32,597 bases of DNA. Origin: Oscillospiraceae bacterium (GTDB taxonomy: Bacteria; Bacillota; Clostridia; HGM11514). Within the stretch, counting starts at the first letter, position 1, and each line of letters starts with the position of its first letter. This document shows, in pieces, positions 14,542 to 25,765 of the stretch. Made by a program: the position numbers and the translations under genes. The stretch is from the NCBI GenBank assembly GCA_015068925.1, contig SVJP01000006.1, forward strand, positions 1 to 32,597. The letters run 5' to 3'. The notes under the pieces are model-generated. The model was not told where the DNA came from, searched no databases, and saw only the letters and a list, made by a program, of their open reading frames with translations.

Positions 14542-15264
14542 TTACAGATAACCGAGTCTTCTTGCCAGTAATGTGAGAAATTGCTTGTTGGTCAGTTTGC
14601 CTTTATCAGCAGATGTTTGATCAAGAATTTCTTGTATGTAAGAATTGCTACACTTTGTAAAAATGCAATCAATCTCATATCGGATTTTTCGTTCTATGCT
14701 TTGAGGAGTAGTCTCAAATTGTTCTGCAAGCTTGGGATATAGTACGGATGTGATGCTTTTTGCACAGTCTTTTTGTGAGGAAATCAGCAGTAATGCATGT
14801 TGAATCAACTGATATCCGTCTGTATGAGATCGTAATTCAAATTTGTTTAACAGATTACTGATGCGGTTCTTCTGAACTTCAATTTTTTCTTCTTGAACTT
14901 TGCAAAGCTGAAGGATTCTTTCTTGCAAAATGCTCCATTCCACAGGTTTTTTGATTACATAAGTGATGGCTGACCGAATTTGATCAGGAATTAGCATTTG
15001 ATTGATTTCCCAAGCACTCATAGTGAAAATAAAGGGCCGATAAGAAGGTAATGTTTGAGTCATCCAGGTGATGACACCAATTCCGTCCATCAAAGGCATA
15101 CAATGATCCAATAAAATCAAATCCGGTTGAAATTGTCTGATTTTAATGCAAGCATCCTTTCCGTTATGCGCAATGCCAATCAATTCCATGGAAGGGTGCA
15201 GACGAACCATTTCGCCAATACAAAGACAAAAGTCTTTATCATCATCTACAACTAAAATTTTCAT
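14542..15264 (-). CDS. Spo0A-like response regulator
   Basis: 240 residues. The receiver domain has VVDDDKDF, phospho-acceptor Asp53 in LLDHCMPLMDG, Thr81 in FTMSA and Lys105/Lys106 before Pro. After a linker (about 120-135) comes a Spo0A-type DNA-binding domain: SHTDGYQLIQHALLL, SVLYPKLAEQF, TTPQSIERKIRYEIDC (recognition helix region; compare TTPSRVERAIRHAIE in Spo0A) and GKLTNKQFLTLLARRL. Spo0A is the master sporulation regulator and binds TGTCGAA boxes. This protein is shorter than usual and its recognition helix diverges, so it is either a divergent Spo0A or a paralogue. The ATG at 15264 is favoured since GAGGA lies 6 nt upstream; the ATG at 15270 touches that site. It is divergent from the SLH gene whose promoter holds an exact 0A box. 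Confidence 0.85.
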   Translation of the reverse strand: MKILVVDDDKDFCLCIGEMVRLHPSMELIGIAHNGKDACIKIRQFQPDLILLDHCMPLMDGIGVITWMTQTLPSYRPFIFTMSAWEINQMLIPDQIRSAITYVIKKPVEWSILQERILQLCKVQEEKIEVQKNRISNLLNKFELRSHTDGYQLIQHALLLISSQKDCAKSITSVLYPKLAEQFETTPQSIERKIRYEIDCIFTKCSNSYIQEILDQTSADKGKLTNKQFLTLLARRLGYL

Positions 15265-15396
15265 TTTCATTCCTCATTTCAATCATTCCTTATTATTATA
15301 CAGTGTTTTTCCGATTTGTTCCATTCGCTTTTTCACCAAAAATATTACTGTTCATAGGCGAAATTTTAAAATCTTATGATTTTTTGTAAAAAAAAC

Positions 15397-15425
15397 TGGT
15401 CAAATGTCGAAACCTGTGATATAAT
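15397..15425 (+). promoter_or_regulatory. Promoter of SLH gene with internal 0A box
   Basis: TATAAT at 15420-15425 is preceded by TGA, an extended -10. A weak -35 (TGGTCA, 15397-15402) lies 17 bp upstream. The spacer contains TGTCGAA at 15405-15411, an exact Spo0A box. A box between -35 and -10 would more naturally repress than activate. Confidence 0.65.
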
Positions 15426-19909: not shown

Positions 19910-20944
19910 ATGAACTATATACAGACTGTGACGGGCCGGATTTCTCCCGATGAAATGGGGTTTACATTGCCCCATGAGCATGTATTCTGGGATTTGAGCT
20001 TTTATTTGCCTGCAGATTTGAAGGATACGGATGAAACAGATGAAAGAAAGCAACCGGTATGCCCCCAAAATCTTGCGCAAATGAAATATCACTTAACAGA
20101 TTATCCCGATAACGTGATACAGCAGGATATGGAGATTGCATTAAAGGAGCTGAATTGGTATCAAGAAGCAGGGGGTGTGACCATTTGCGACAATGGCAGT
20201 TACGGACTGAACTGTGACCCTGTGATGCTTCGTGAGGCTTCCCAAAGAAGCGGTGTGCAGATTGTTCGCGGAACAGGAGCATATCAGGGAATTACATTAC
20301 CGTCTGAGATAGCAAAACTGGGCGTTGACCGGTTGGCAGAGCTTTTTATCAAAGAAATTGTTGTGGGAATTGGAACCACGGGCATCCAATGCGGATTTAT
20401 TGGTGAAATCGGCTTAAATGCAGGAATGCCTGAACGTTCTATTCGTTCTTTGGCAGCTGCAGCAATTGCGCAAAAAGAGACGGGCGCTGCCATTACTATT
20501 CATCAGCCCGGTCTTGAACATCGTGCCGATGAGATTTTTAAAATAATTGACGAAAATGGTGGAGATATTACAAAAACTGTGATGTGCCATTGTGACCCGT
20601 TTTTGCCGGAGCCTGAGTATATTGACCATATTGCAAAAAGCGGTGCTTATATTTCTTTTGATTTCTTTGGGCTTGAGGCTGTTTTGGGAGGTACGTTATG
20701 GCTTCCCACCGATCGTGACCGAATTGTGGGAATAAAAAAACAGATTGAATTGGGGAATTTAGAACATATTTTAATGTCTCACGACACCGCATATAAGTGT
20801 ATGCTTCGTCAATATGGAGGCTTTGGTTACGGACATATTAAAAAGCATATCATTCCCTTTATGCGATCCTTCGGATATGAGCAGGCATGGATTGATTGTA
20901 TGACTGTAGAAAATCCTAAGCGTGTTTTCAGCTTGGAAGTATAG
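19910..20944 (+). CDS. Phosphotriesterase-family amidohydrolase (PHP/lactonase-like)
   Basis: 344 residues. Metal motif TLPHEHVFWD (His22, His24) opens the barrel, ITIHQPG and VMCHCDP carry the two later His residues, and SHDTAYK carries the last metal Asp. GFIGEIG has Glu where classical phosphotriesterase has the carboxylated Lys, as described for the E. coli PHP protein. Family members hydrolyse lactones or phosphate esters; the natural substrate here is unknown. The ATG at 19910 is preferred (AAAGGA upstream); an earlier frame opening at 19856 lies inside a palindrome. It is 110 bp after the ATPase and its stop codon abuts repeat copy 2. Confidence 0.88.
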   Translation: MNYIQTVTGRISPDEMGFTLPHEHVFWDLSFYLPADLKDTDETDERKQPVCPQNLAQMKYHLTDYPDNVIQQDMEIALKELNWYQEAGGVTICDNGSYGLNCDPVMLREASQRSGVQIVRGTGAYQGITLPSEIAKLGVDRLAELFIKEIVVGIGTTGIQCGFIGEIGLNAGMPERSIRSLAAAAIAQKETGAAITIHQPGLEHRADEIFKIIDENGGDITKTVMCHCDPFLPEPEYIDHIAKSGAYISFDFFGLEAVLGGTLWLPTDRDRIVGIKKQIELGNLEHILMSHDTAYKCMLRQYGGFGYGHIKKHIIPFMRSFGYEQAWIDCMTVENPKRVFSLEV

Positions 20945-21068
20945 TTGAAAAAGTCGGACTGCCGGGAGTAATTAAAAAATAAAAGAGATTGATTATAAAT
21001 TTCTAAATATAAAACAAAAAACCGTCAGGAAAATAAACGAAATTCCCTGACGGTTACTTGCTTTTATA
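20944..21068 (-). repeat. Intergenic repeat family, copy 2 (reverse orientation)
   Basis: Read on the minus strand it has AAAGCAAG, a hairpin of AACCGTCAGG type with T-tract, an AT spacer containing TTAGAAATTTATAATC (compare TTAGAAATTCATAATT in copy 3), and GGCAGTCCGACTTTTTCAAC. One end coincides with the stop codon of the phosphotriesterase-family gene. Confidence 0.8.
21012..21056 (-). terminator. Terminator of beta-lactamase-like operon, supplied by repeat copy 2
   Basis: On the minus strand AACCGTCAGGGAA pairs with TTTCCTGACGGTT, followed by TTTTGTTTTAT. It lies about 95 bp past the stop of the gene at 21150 and would end that operon. The stretch 21069-21149 shows nothing else. Confidence 0.75.
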
Positions 21069-21149
21069 AAAAAGATATTTGTTTGCTGTGCTCTCCCATA
21101 AATCGTAGAGCCTAACATACCCATAATCAAAAGAACGAAGCAGCTTTTT

Positions 21150-22043
21150 TCATTCTTCTGAATTCCCTTTGTCGTTAAAAAAATTGTACGTAATTTCTGA
21201 CAGTTTGGCAATTGCCTGGTGACTGTCCCAACTGCTCCGGGTATTGTTTACCATGGCGCAAATCACATAATCTCCTTTGGGAGAAAATACAATTCCTACA
21301 TCAGCTTGAATATCGTCTGTTTCTCCTGTTTTATTGGCAATTTTGGTGCCTTCGGGGAGAAGAGCAGGAATTTTCTCTCTTCTTGTTTGACCCAACAACA
21401 GCTTTAACATTTCTTCATCATATTTGGGAGAAATACATTCTTTTCGGTAAATTTTTTCCAATGCAATACCACAATCTGTGACACAGGAATAATTGATTCC
21501 GGGAACCAGATATCCCGGGTCGTAATCAAACAACATCATCCCGTCTTGGGTTTGTGTGCAGCCGAGTTTTGCGGCGGTTTCATTCACATATTCTGCACCC
21601 TTATAAAAATCGCCATTTCCAATATAGGTTACCACTTCATTGGAGGCTGCATTTTCACTGTAAATAATCATTCGCTTTACTGTGTCCAGAATTTCAGGTG
21701 AAGAAGAAATCAACCCTTCCTGCAGTGCACGGTAAAACGCAATCATACGAAACATTTTAATCACGCTGGCAGGCTGCAATTGTTGGTTCTGATATTCCAA
21801 AACAGAATCAGAATCCAGGTGCTTTACATAAAAGGACCAGTCACCGCCGATTCCTGCGATTGCTTCTTCTACCTGTTCTCTTAACGGTTTCATATCAACG
21901 GGTTCGGGAGTCGGTTCCGGTGTTATCTCCACCGCAACCGGCTTCGCGGTAAGGGATGACACTGCAACGCCTGTCAGAACACTGCCAATTATCAGGATGG
22001 CGGCAAGAGTGATGAGTAATGATTTCCATTCTCTTTTATTCAT
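21150..22043 (-). CDS. Membrane-anchored serine beta-lactamase-fold protein
   Basis: 297 residues. A single N-terminal membrane anchor (residues 10-32) is followed by a Pro/Glu-rich linker (TPEPTPEPVD) and a class A beta-lactamase-type domain. The SxxK motif is PASVIKM (Ser93, Lys96), the SDN-like motif is SEN (129-131), and KTG is at 238-240. I see no clear Glu166-type omega-loop signature. It may therefore be a penicillin-binding or cell-wall-associated homologue rather than a resistance enzyme. It starts 12 bp after the repeat-bearing zinc-ribbon gene and probably shares its 0A-box promoter. Confidence 0.85.
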   Translation of the reverse strand: MNKREWKSLLITLAAILIIGSVLTGVAVSSLTAKPVAVEITPEPTPEPVDMKPLREQVEEAIAGIGGDWSFYVKHLDSDSVLEYQNQQLQPASVIKMFRMIAFYRALQEGLISSSPEILDTVKRMIIYSENAASNEVVTYIGNGDFYKGAEYVNETAAKLGCTQTQDGMMLFDYDPGYLVPGINYSCVTDCGIALEKIYRKECISPKYDEEMLKLLLGQTRREKIPALLPEGTKIANKTGETDDIQADVGIVFSPKGDYVICAMVNNTRSSWDSHQAIAKLSEITYNFFNDKGNSEE

Positions 22044-22055
22044 AAAAACACCTTT

Positions 22056-22590
22056 CTACGGAGTATAGACACAATTTCCGTTCTCGTCGTAAACTTCATA
22101 TCCGTCTGCCTTATGTTGATTTGCTAAATTTACTGCATTGGAGTATACTGCAAAAGCACCAAGCTGAGAAGATTTATCTCCTGCAAATTTTTGCACATAA
22201 TAAAGTCCCGTATATTCCGAGGAACTTGTAGACGAAGTGGTACTTGGGGTATAGATGCAATTGCCATAGTCGTCATAAACTTCATATCCGTCTGCTGCAT
22301 TTTTATCGGCTAAATTGATGGCGTTGCTTAATATTGCAAAAGCGCCAAGCTGAGAAGATTTATCTCCTGCAAATTTTTGTACATAATAAAGTCCCGTATA
22401 TCCCGAGGAACTTGTAGACGAAGTGGTGCTTGGAGCATAGATGCAATTTCCATAGACATCGTATACTTCATAGCCGTATGCCGCATTTTTGTCAGCTAAA
22501 TTGATGGCGTTGCTTAACACTGCAAAAGCGCCAAGCTGAGAAGCTTTATCCCCCGCAAATTTTTGCACATAATATAGTCCCGTGTATCCT
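22056..22590 (-). repeat. Three tandem 186-bp coding repeats
   Basis: The marker TAAAGTCCCG (or TATAGTCCCG) recurs at 22201, 22387 and 22573, an exact 186-bp period (62 codons). The two linkers are nearly identical in nucleotides (GAGGAACTTGTAGACGAAGT in both), showing recent duplication or gene conversion. Confidence 0.9.
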
Positions 22591-23303
22591 GAGGAGGCAG
22601 TAGGGGTTGGGATGGGTTGAGGAATTTCGTCAAATAACCCTGAAACATCAAGGATATCTCCCGGTAAACCAACCATTCTTTTCTTTTGGCTGGAGGATGT
22701 CAAAAAGGAAAAATCCGTACTTTGATTATCGTAAAAAATGGTTGCGCCGAAATTGGCATACGCATCCTGAGAGGAGCTGTAAACAAAAACCGTTCCTGTT
22801 GTTTGTTCAATTATTTTGCCTTTAACAACTGCTCCTGACGAATCTAACTTCTGTTCATAAATTGTTACCGTGCTGTCTTGATATTTGGGAATGACAACGA
22901 ACAACTCCTGACCACCGCAATGAACCACATTGGGATTTTGAATCCCCAATTTGCTTGTCCAGACCGAAAGGTCAGACACCGAAGCGGTTGCTCCCAAAAC
23001 AGAGACCTTTCCTTGAGATACTTTTTCAAAATCAGAATTGATTTCATAGCTCGGCGTTTCTTGTGTCATCTGGTTATTGCCTGACAAATTTGGTTTCAAA
23101 ACGGAGCCGAAGAACACAATCATAGCAATAATGAGTAATAAGCAAACGCCTATGATGACAGAAATCAACAAGGCATGATTTTTTTGTTTTTGGGAACCCA
23201 TGTTGTTTGGTATGTACTGACTTTCTCTTCTCAGAGCATTTCCGCATCTGTGACAATGAGTATCATTTTGATTGACTTGTGTACCGCATTTTGAACAAAA
23301 CAA
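22056..23303 (-). CDS. Zinc-ribbon membrane protein with three tandem SPOR-like repeats
   Basis: 415 residues. The N-terminal zinc ribbon has FCSKCG and CHRCG, then one membrane helix (about residues 45-67, LLISVIIGVCLLLIIAMIVFF). An unknown extracytoplasmic region (70-235) follows, then three 62-residue repeats. Each has LYYVQKFAGDK, SQLGAFA, SNAINLADK and GYEVYD-x-x-GNCIY, joined by Ser/Thr linkers. The repeat resembles the GAF/A-x-x-GY-x-V-x-D segments found in clostridial cell-wall amidases and SPOR-like domains, so peptidoglycan binding is plausible. The start is TTG at 23303: GGAGG is 8 nt upstream, whereas the GTG at 23312 overlaps that site. First gene of a two-gene operon with 21150-22043. 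Confidence 0.82.
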   Translation of the reverse strand: MFCSKCGTQVNQNDTHCHRCGNALRRESQYIPNNMGSQKQKNHALLISVIIGVCLLLIIAMIVFFGSVLKPNLSGNNQMTQETPSYEINSDFEKVSQGKVSVLGATASVSDLSVWTSKLGIQNPNVVHCGGQELFVVIPKYQDSTVTIYEQKLDSSGAVVKGKIIEQTTGTVFVYSSSQDAYANFGATIFYDNQSTDFSFLTSSSQKKRMVGLPGDILDVSGLFDEIPQPIPTPTASSGYTGLYYVQKFAGDKASQLGAFAVLSNAINLADKNAAYGYEVYDVYGNCIYAPSTTSSTSSSGYTGLYYVQKFAGDKSSQLGAFAILSNAINLADKNAADGYEVYDDYGNCIYTPSTTSSTSSSEYTGLYYVQKFAGDKSSQLGAFAVYSNAVNLANQHKADGYEVYDENGNCVYTP

Positions 23304-23321
23304 TGTTATCACCTCCTTTTT

Positions 23322-23385
23322 ATCATACCATAAACAACCTCTTTTGTCAATTCATTTTCGACATAAAAACAGGTGATTTTCGACA
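23322..23385 (-). promoter_or_regulatory. Minus-strand promoter with two tandem 0A boxes
   Basis: On the minus strand TTGACA (23345-23350), 17 bp, TATGAT (23322-23327). Upstream of the -35 are two exact TGTCGAA boxes at 23357-23363 and 23379-23385. They have the same orientation, are 22 bp apart (about two helical turns), and lie inside a direct repeat ATTTTCGACATAAAA(A)CAGGTG. This is the layout of Spo0A-activated sigma-A promoters. Confidence 0.75.
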
Positions 23386-23424
23386 TAAAACAGGTGATTT
23401 GCCAAGGTTTTCCTTTCATTTTTA

Positions 23425-23453
23425 TTGACAAAAGCCCTGTTTTGGTGTACAAT
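23425..23453 (+). promoter_or_regulatory. Promoter of coaX
   Basis: TTGACA (23425-23430), 17 bp, TACAAT (23448-23453). It is divergent from the 0A-box promoter, with the two boxes about 40 bp upstream of its -35. Confidence 0.8.
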
Positions 23454-23497
23454 AAAAAACAGAACGAACTTATGACAACAGGAAGGAGGATTCAAAT

Positions 23498-23527
23498 TTG
23501 TTTTCTGATACGGGAAAATTGATTTGA
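23498..23527 (+). CDS. Possible 9-codon leader cistron before coaX
   Basis: The strong ribosome binding site AAGGAGGA (23483-23490) is 7 nt before TTG 23498, which opens a frame of nine codons ending in TGA at 23525-23527. That stop overlaps the coaX ATG (TGATG). The coaX start itself has only a weak binding site, so translational coupling is likely. No upstream start in the coaX frame explains the strong site. Confidence 0.4.
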   Translation: MFSDTGKLI

Positions 23528-24318
23528 TGGATAAAAGGATGTTACTTTTGGTTGATGTGGGAAATACGAATATTGTATTCGGTATTTATCAGGAAGACAC
23601 CCTGGTCAGCAGTTTTCGGATGTCTACTCAGGCGGATCGTTCTCTGGATGAGATGGGTGTGCTGATTTTACAATTTCTGGCACTGAAGAATGTGAAAGCG
23701 GAAGAAATTGAAGATATTATTCTTGCTTCGGTTGTACCACAGATTATGTATCCTTTGTGTAAAGCGTTAAAATCCTATGTGGGAAGAGAACCCATTGTGG
23801 TGGATGGTTCGATGAATTTGGGTATGAAAAATAAATATGATAATCCAAAAGAAGTGGGCGCTGACAGGCTGGTCAATGCTGTTGCAGCAAAGGAATTGTA
23901 CGGTACGCCTTGTATTATTGTGGATTTCGGAACGGCAACCACCTTTTGTGCCATTGACAAAAACGGAGATTATTTGGGCGGTTCCATTTTGCCCGGTATT
24001 AAAATTTCTTTAGATGCACTTTTTTCCAAAACGGCAAAGCTGCCGAAAATTGAAATTGAGGACCCGGGAAAAATCATTGGAACCAATACAGTCACCAGTA
24101 TGCAATCCGGTATTTTTTACGGTTATGTGGGCTCGGTTGATTATATCGTAGATGAAATGACAAAGGAATTGGGCGGCGATACGAAGGTGGTTGCAACGGG
24201 CGGACTTTCTTCTTTGATTTCCACCAAATCCAAAACCATTCAGACAATCGACCGTAAATTAACCTTAAAAGGGTTAAAGCTGATTTATGACCGTCTGAAA
24301 AAAGGAGAACTCAAATGA
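23527..24318 (+). CDS. coaX: Type III pantothenate kinase
   Basis: 263 residues, normal length. First step of coenzyme A synthesis: ATP-dependent phosphorylation of pantothenate, cytoplasmic. The ASKHA fold is shown by LLLVDVGNTNIVFG near the N-terminus, KEVGADRLVNAV (GADR), IIVDFGTATTFCAID with its catalytic-region Asp, GGSILPGI and VVATGGLS. The ATG at 23527 is used; an internal ATG at 23539 (MLLLVDVGNTN) is the other candidate. The last codons overlap the next start as ATGA. Confidence 0.95.
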   Translation: MDKRMLLLVDVGNTNIVFGIYQEDTLVSSFRMSTQADRSLDEMGVLILQFLALKNVKAEEIEDIILASVVPQIMYPLCKALKSYVGREPIVVDGSMNLGMKNKYDNPKEVGADRLVNAVAAKELYGTPCIIVDFGTATTFCAIDKNGDYLGGSILPGIKISLDALFSKTAKLPKIEIEDPGKIIGTNTVTSMQSGIFYGYVGSVDYIVDEMTKELGGDTKVVATGGLSSLISTKSKTIQTIDRKLTLKGLKLIYDRLKKGELK

Positions 24319-24782
24319 AGCAAATCATCCAATCTCCCATTAAAGCAAAAAAATGGGCAGGCTTGCTTGCCTTGGGTGTCATTATGGTCTTGTTGCTTCG
24401 GGCAAGATTGTCCAATTTTGCAGGAACCTTATTGACCATCGGCATTATGATTTTGTTTATTGATATGCTGGTGAATGGTGTTTTGGCGGAATATGAATAC
24501 GAAATTATGGACCATGTATTCCTTTATAAGAGAAAGTTTCAAAATCGGGAAAAGATTCTTTTTTTCGTTCCGTTGGATTCTGTGGTGATCATGGCAAAGG
24601 AGAATGACCCTATCTTGTCCCGGTATCAAATCCATAGCACCGGTAATTTGATTCCCCGTTTTTGTGAGGAAGAAAAATATGAGGTAGTGTATCGGGAAAA
24701 TGAGCGTTATTTTAAATTTCGGTTCATTCCCAATGAGGAATTTTCAGAAGGGTTTGCTGAGCAAATCAAGCCGATAGAATAG
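24315..24782 (+). CDS. Small membrane protein, function unknown
   Basis: 155 residues. Two adjacent membrane segments (about 13-29 AGLLALGVIMVLLLRA and 37-53 LLTIGIMILFIDMLVNG) are followed by a soluble domain with beta-strand character (YEYEIMDHVFLYKRKF, FVPLDSVVIMAKEND, YFKFRFIPNEEF). This resembles membrane-anchored PH-like domains, but I cannot name the family. Translationally coupled to coaX by a 4-nt overlap. Confidence 0.8.
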   Translation: MKQIIQSPIKAKKWAGLLALGVIMVLLLRARLSNFAGTLLTIGIMILFIDMLVNGVLAEYEYEIMDHVFLYKRKFQNREKILFFVPLDSVVIMAKENDPILSRYQIHSTGNLIPRFCEEEKYEVVYRENERYFKFRFIPNEEFSEGFAEQIKPIE

Positions 24783-24809
24783 AAATGAGGGCTGTTTGAA
24801 ACAAATAGA

Positions 24810-24847
24810 GGCTGTAGCAAGCAAAATAATTTTTGCTTGCTACAGCC
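24810..24847. terminator. Long hairpin between convergent genes
   Basis: A 17-bp perfect stem, GGCTGTAGCAAGCAAAA (24810-24826), pairs with 24831-24847 over the loop TAAT. It has no long T-tract on either side but sits between convergent stops and probably terminates both. The TGTAGCAA core is shared with the hairpins at 133 and 28428. Confidence 0.65.
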
Positions 24848-24856
24848 CCTTGAATT

Positions 24857-25765
24857 TTACCAAGTTGTGATGTAGGGAGTAATTACTGCATCCAAATTAT
24901 CATATCTTGAATCACAATCGTCAAGATTTATGTCCGGTAAATTACGTGCCCAATTATGAGATGCAACGGTGTACCCATGAATTCTGTTAATGTTTGAAAC
25001 CAATTTGTTTGCTTCGGATAAGGCGGAGTTAATATAGTTGACAAAATCACCTTTATAATAGAAATTAGGATTTTGGTTCAAATGATACAGACGTTCCTGC
25101 AAAAAGGCTTGAACACTTTTTGCTCTGTTGATATTTCCTTGATTAATATAAAGAATGTCGTTTTCGTAATACAATTTTCCGCCAAATGTATCATCAATTG
25201 CATTAGTAACTTGTCCGATGGAGTTTCTGGCATAACGAATACTTTCGTTTAATTCATAAGCAGGCAGTAAGGTTTGCCAATCGGGATTGTATTCCATGAA
25301 AATATTACTGGTAAAGCTGATGCTGTCGGATACGGGATAGTAATTCACTTTTCCGTACCGCCATAAATCAGTCATGCTGATTAACATTCTTCCGTCTAAG
25401 CTATAAGCATTTACATAATCCCCATCCAAACGAACCCTTGTATTGCTGGAAACGACTGTGGACATTTTTTCTCTGACAAAAGTAGGTTCTATATCATCAA
25501 AGTTGTAAGGTGTCCAGGTTTTAAAAGGGTTATAATAAATGTCTAAAATTTCGGTTTTACCATTCCAACTGATGTCAAACCCATATCCTTGCAAATCTTC
25601 GGCAACGATATAGGATTCTCCGTTATAAACATATTGAGGGATTGCTTCGTTGTCAATATACGCCATGGTATTGGATGTGTAAACTGTGTTGTCAGCAGAA
25701 ACAGCCAAGCCTGCCAACAGAATCAAACATACACTGATTAACAGTGCGATTGAACATTTTTTCAT
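24857..25765 (-). CDS. Secreted stalk-domain (copper amine oxidase N-like) protein
   Basis: 302 residues. Signal peptide MKKCSIALLISVCLILLAGL with cleavage after AVSA. The N-terminal half has two stalk-type units of the copper amine oxidase N-domain kind: YVYNGESYIVAEDLQGYGFD followed by WNGKTEILDIYY, and DGRMLISMTDLWRYGKV followed by YYPVSDSISFT. The C-terminal half (about 150-302) is a helical region of unknown role. In clostridia such domains are found on extracellular cell-wall-associated proteins. The ATG at 25765 is chosen for AGAGGAAG upstream and the signal peptide; the longer frame to 25864 overlaps the preceding gene. It lies 29 bp after the DUF1858 gene. Confidence 0.82.
   Translation of the reverse strand: MKKCSIALLISVCLILLAGLAVSADNTVYTSNTMAYIDNEAIPQYVYNGESYIVAEDLQGYGFDISWNGKTEILDIYYNPFKTWTPYNFDDIEPTFVREKMSTVVSSNTRVRLDGDYVNAYSLDGRMLISMTDLWRYGKVNYYPVSDSISFTSNIFMEYNPDWQTLLPAYELNESIRYARNSIGQVTNAIDDTFGGKLYYENDILYINQGNINRAKSVQAFLQERLYHLNQNPNFYYKGDFVNYINSALSEANKLVSNINRIHGYTVASHNWARNLPDINLDDCDSRYDNLDAVITPYITTW

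Follow-up and report, generated by a model that had tools for sequence, protein, structure and literature searches.

The closest described relative of the arrangement reported here is the spoIIG (spoIIGA-sigE) promoter of Firmicutes, in which a Spo0A-box core likewise lies upstream of a sigma-A-type -10 element. Sigma-A promoters activated by Spo0A, such as spoIIG and spoIIE of B. subtilis, have an over-long spacer, for which Spo0A compensates. Outside this promoter type, the Spo0A DNA-binding domain of C. difficile bound in vitro to fragments carrying a perfect box at most 100 bp from a start codon; perfect cores were predictive of binding, and bases G2, C4, and G5 of the box are important (PMC3485338). 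The bound fragments included those upstream of lplA and ssuA, which are not linked to sporulation, so that Spo0A binding to upstream DNA of non-sporulation genes is already known in C. difficile (PMC3485338). Regulation by Spo0A is likewise position-dependent, and positively regulated genes tend to carry sites upstream of the -35 element (PMC4168254). At the sin locus of C. difficile, in turn, Spo0A acts as a repressor through upstream boxes (PMC7643835); as such boxes can thus mediate repression, the regulatory sign is not readable from position alone.

The DNA analyzed here (the window) is a stretch of 32,597 nt from an Oscillospiraceae bacterium (contig SVJP01000006.1 of assembly GCA_015068925.1), whose genome comprises 2.18 Mb in 220 contigs and is 86% complete. 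A sigma-A-type promoter, TTGACA-17-TATGAT with an extended -10 (TG), is located on the minus strand at 23322-23350 (TTGACA at 23350-23345, TATGAT at 23327-23322); with 11/12 matches, it shares the top score among the promoter-like sites of the region 20900-24900. As the -35 is perfect, the spacing is 17 bp, and the -10 is extended, this promoter should fire without an activator. Judging by the -10, transcription would start near 23315, and the leader would be only some 12 nt long. The gene that follows (22056-23303, minus strand) likely starts at TTG 23303, with GGAGG at 23316-23312, and encodes a protein that combines a zinc ribbon (E = 1.6e-4, under its cut-off) with a single transmembrane segment and three SPOR-like repeats (Pfam SPOR, E = 2.7e-9). 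These repeats, of 62 aa each, correspond to a 186-bp coding DNA repeat present in 2.9 copies. A gene for a class A beta-lactamase-fold serine hydrolase (21150-22043, minus strand; PF13354, E = 6.5e-34) lies 12 bp downstream; its product falls short of the beta-lactamase equivalog cut-offs, and the two genes probably share an operon. The SPOR protein is apparently lineage-specific, since no orthologue was found in 99 relatives, 391 genomes of the class, or the GTDB genome collection, all of which yielded only weak domain matches; a search of the order returned the genome of the window alone. No box was present in the upstream regions scanned at the loci of these weak domain relatives, for which the longest ORF on either strand was used (in L056, a different gene), so that this result carries little weight.

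Upstream of this promoter, also on the minus strand, there are two exact copies of the 0A-box core TGTCGAA, with G2, C4, and G5 in place: a proximal one at 23357-23363, approximately -48 to -42 of the predicted start site, and a distal one at 23379-23385. Their starts are 22 bp apart; measured from the TTG start codon, the boxes begin at 54 and 76 bp upstream, and 6 and 28 bp separate them from the -35. Both have A/T-rich flanks, TTATGTCGAAAAT being present in both copies. The first-pass annotation had reported two exact boxes in one orientation, 22 bp apart, inside a duplicated 22-bp unit and 6 bp from the -35 of the TTGACA-17-TATGAT promoter, and in all these respects it agrees with the sequence. 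The duplication is a tandem array at 23354-23400 (no strand assigned), consisting of 2.2 copies of ATTTTCGACATAAAA(A)CAGGTG (Tandem Repeats Finder score 87, period 21-22, 96% matches). Segments ATTTTCGACATAAAA and AAAACAGGTGATTT are identical between both copies (spacings 22 and 21), and the sole difference is one A in an A-run. The lack of substitutions fits a slippage duplication that, judging by the identity of the copies, is apparently recent. An origin of the unit from a dispersed repeat was rejected, as it occurs nowhere else in the genome. In viral contigs, an exact 18-mer of the unit had one match, which by a rough estimate is about the chance level.

Since the boxes are two copies of one duplication, they count statistically as one box. 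The tandem pair reflects a single duplication event, which explains the second box, and is not evidence for two selected sites. Unlike the lplA and ssuA sites of C. difficile, which bound Spo0A in vitro, the box considered here is duplicated and is a predicted site.

The genome encodes a canonical Spo0A on contig 37 (G000:C37; Spo0A_C, E = 7e-46), the recognition segment of which, SRVERAIRHAIEVAW, is identical to the B. subtilis sequence in 1LQ1. The sporulation genes present include spoIIGA, spoIIE (with a match under the curated cut-off of the family), and spoIIAA/AB (named by eye), the latter with a TTGTCGAAAA site upstream. Given the canonical Spo0A, the sporulation genes, and the in vitro binding of perfect boxes in C. 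difficile, binding of Spo0A at the boxes is plausible, while physiological regulation of the operon by Spo0A has about an even chance. The explanation that we tentatively prefer, with confidence slightly short of even, is a candidate Spo0A site that has been doubled by duplication and modulates a near-consensus promoter. The tandem duplication, short and apparently recent, lies just upstream of a near-consensus sigma-A promoter, and both of its copies contain a perfect Spo0A core; canonical Spo0A~P would probably bind these cores, as the conservation of its recognition helix and the exact core match suggest. As the promoter is predicted to fire unaided, any effect of Spo0A on the operon would be modulation from an upstream site, of either sign, rather than a spoIIG-type switch compensating for a misplaced -35.

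It is also possible, though somewhat less likely, that the arrangement is accidental: a TGTCGAA present by chance in AT-rich DNA upstream of a constitutive promoter would have been doubled by replication slippage, with no regulation by Spo0A. The near-consensus promoter and the derivation of the second box from the duplication agree with this explanation, and so do the counts: TGTCGAA occurs in the window four times against 4.26 expected, showing no enrichment. A box pair within 40 bp appeared in 0 of 20,000 shuffles, the second box being accounted for by the duplication. For a single box, the 223-bp intergenic region is only marginally beyond chance (p ~0.04 for at least one box, not corrected for the number of regions), and two independent intergenic boxes across the whole window have p ~0.10. 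In the genome-wide statistics, which rest on pattern searches, the A/T-flanked core WTGTCGAAAW was found 23 times, many copies being within genes, against 56 for the reversed control, which lacks CpG. Exact boxes elsewhere in the genome also fall inside genes, for instance carB-like and hemW-like ones. Tandem boxes spaced by 21-23 bp showed no enrichment in 99 genomes of the class (six match; the reversed control, without CpG, has more). Against an accidental origin, the box is flanked by A/T in an intergenic promoter region, at a position plausible for an activator, the genome has a canonical Spo0A, and perfect cores predicted binding in C. difficile (PMC3485338).

A further explanation, which we consider unlikely, is that the 22-bp repeat is the operator of some other regulator, forming a direct repeat with a period of two helical turns and possibly serving both divergent promoters. 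The divergent gene is coaX, encoding type III pantothenate kinase (23527-24318, plus strand; PF03309, E = 1.3e-76). As it has its own promoter, TTGACA-17-TACAAT (23425-23453, plus strand; 11/12 matches), the boxes lie between two divergent promoters; they are about 40 and 61 bp upstream of the coaX -35 and 62 and 84 bp from its -10. Upstream of coaX (23485-23529), a strong Shine-Dalgarno GGAGG precedes a possible short leader ORF starting at TTG 23498, the TGA of which overlaps the coaX ATG (TGATG), suggesting translational coupling. One candidate for such a regulator is encoded 8 kb away: a diverged Spo0A paralogue of 242 aa (14542-15270, minus strand; Spo0A_C, E = 4.6e-22; TIGR02875, 152 bits at a cut-off of 200), with 32% identity to the canonical Spo0A of this genome. 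Its IERKIR segment aligns with VERAIR of Spo0A, and a third intergenic TGTCGAA (15405-15411, plus strand) lies in its own divergent promoter region, between TGGTCA and TATAAT (15420-15425) of an SLH-type gene. If bound, this third box (window 15397-15425) would by its position predict repression. The duplicated unit also reaches past the 7-bp core, CACCTG being doubled too. Against an operator of this kind, no further exact copy of the unit was found in the genome, the flanks of the site at 15405 do not match the remainder of the unit, and, as genomes of the class commonly encode a second Spo0A-type protein, the presence of the paralogue is unspecific.

The geometry of the promoter was compared with that of spoIIGA promoters. 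The 250 bp upstream of spoIIGA were taken from 30 genomes, including the source genome (L059, L063-L091), and 7-mers at all distances from -10-like hexamers were scored for similarity to TTCGACA and TGTCGAA, allowing up to two mismatches. TTCGACA-like words peaked sharply at a distance of exactly 21 bp upstream of the -10, with 20 of 94 placements there compared with approximately two at most other distances; a smaller second excess, of eight, was seen at 34 bp. Some of the words counted, such as TTTGACA, are also plain -35 elements, so that not all need be Spo0A boxes, but a -35 placed 21 bp from the -10 itself marks the spoIIG type. Forward TGTCGAA-like words had no peak at 21 bp in the same 30 regions (1/94). 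Hence spoIIG-type activation in the class is characterized by a fixed orientation, a spacing of 21 bp, and a box located on the -35. The source genome conforms to this: its own spoIIGA promoter has TACGACA, in the orientation opposite to that of the candidate, overlapping the -35 and 21 bp before TATAAT. TACGACA is the degenerate box named for C. difficile (PMC7643835). The spoIIAA box of the source genome is likewise in the orientation opposite to the candidate and adjoins a sigma-H-like -35; in the spoIIAA promoter (L036, 1440-1566), the reverse 0A box TTTTCGACA directly precedes a sigma-H-like AAAGGAAAT, and GGTCGAA is found further upstream.

The candidate differs from spoIIG in each of these features. 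In spoIIG, a TTCGACA-like box overlaps the -35, 21 bp before the -10, whereas here the boxes read TGTCGAA along transcription, do not touch the -35, and are 29 and 51 bp from the -10 of a 17-bp promoter with a perfect TTGACA. Their orientation would suit the coaX promoter, but the distances from its -10 do not match 21 bp either. The claim of the first-pass annotation that the locus has a textbook Spo0A-activation geometry is therefore unsupported, and textbook activation of the operon is very improbable: perfect boxes do lie upstream of the -35, at about -45, and positively regulated genes tend to carry sites upstream of that element (PMC4168254), but the orientation, the -35 overlap, and the 21-bp spacing of spoIIGA are all absent, and a near-consensus promoter should need no help. 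As the promoter is unlike the sporulation-activated promoters of the source and related genomes, the case is a fairly ordinary one. The preferred explanation remains that of a doubled, modulating site: the locus holds a real but modest candidate Spo0A site beside a strong ordinary promoter.

A more far-reaching proposal, which we regard as improbable, is that a Spo0A-family regulator, either the canonical protein or the paralogue, controls the SPOR membrane protein and the serine hydrolase through forward boxes two turns apart, in an architecture other than that of spoIIG, linking envelope remodeling to sporulation entry. If true, it would hold in an order of spore-forming Firmicutes that is poorly sampled. 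As SPOR domains recognize bare glycan strands at septa, a connection with the sporulation septum would be reasonable if Spo0A acts here. In that case, the Spo0A regulon of an unsampled order would gain an envelope protein with SPOR domains and a hydrolase of beta-lactamase fold. Of more use at present is the control: across the class, spoIIGA promoters follow a sharp 21-bp rule that is specific for orientation; the candidate promoter fails this rule, which can be used for judging sequence-based claims of Spo0A activation.
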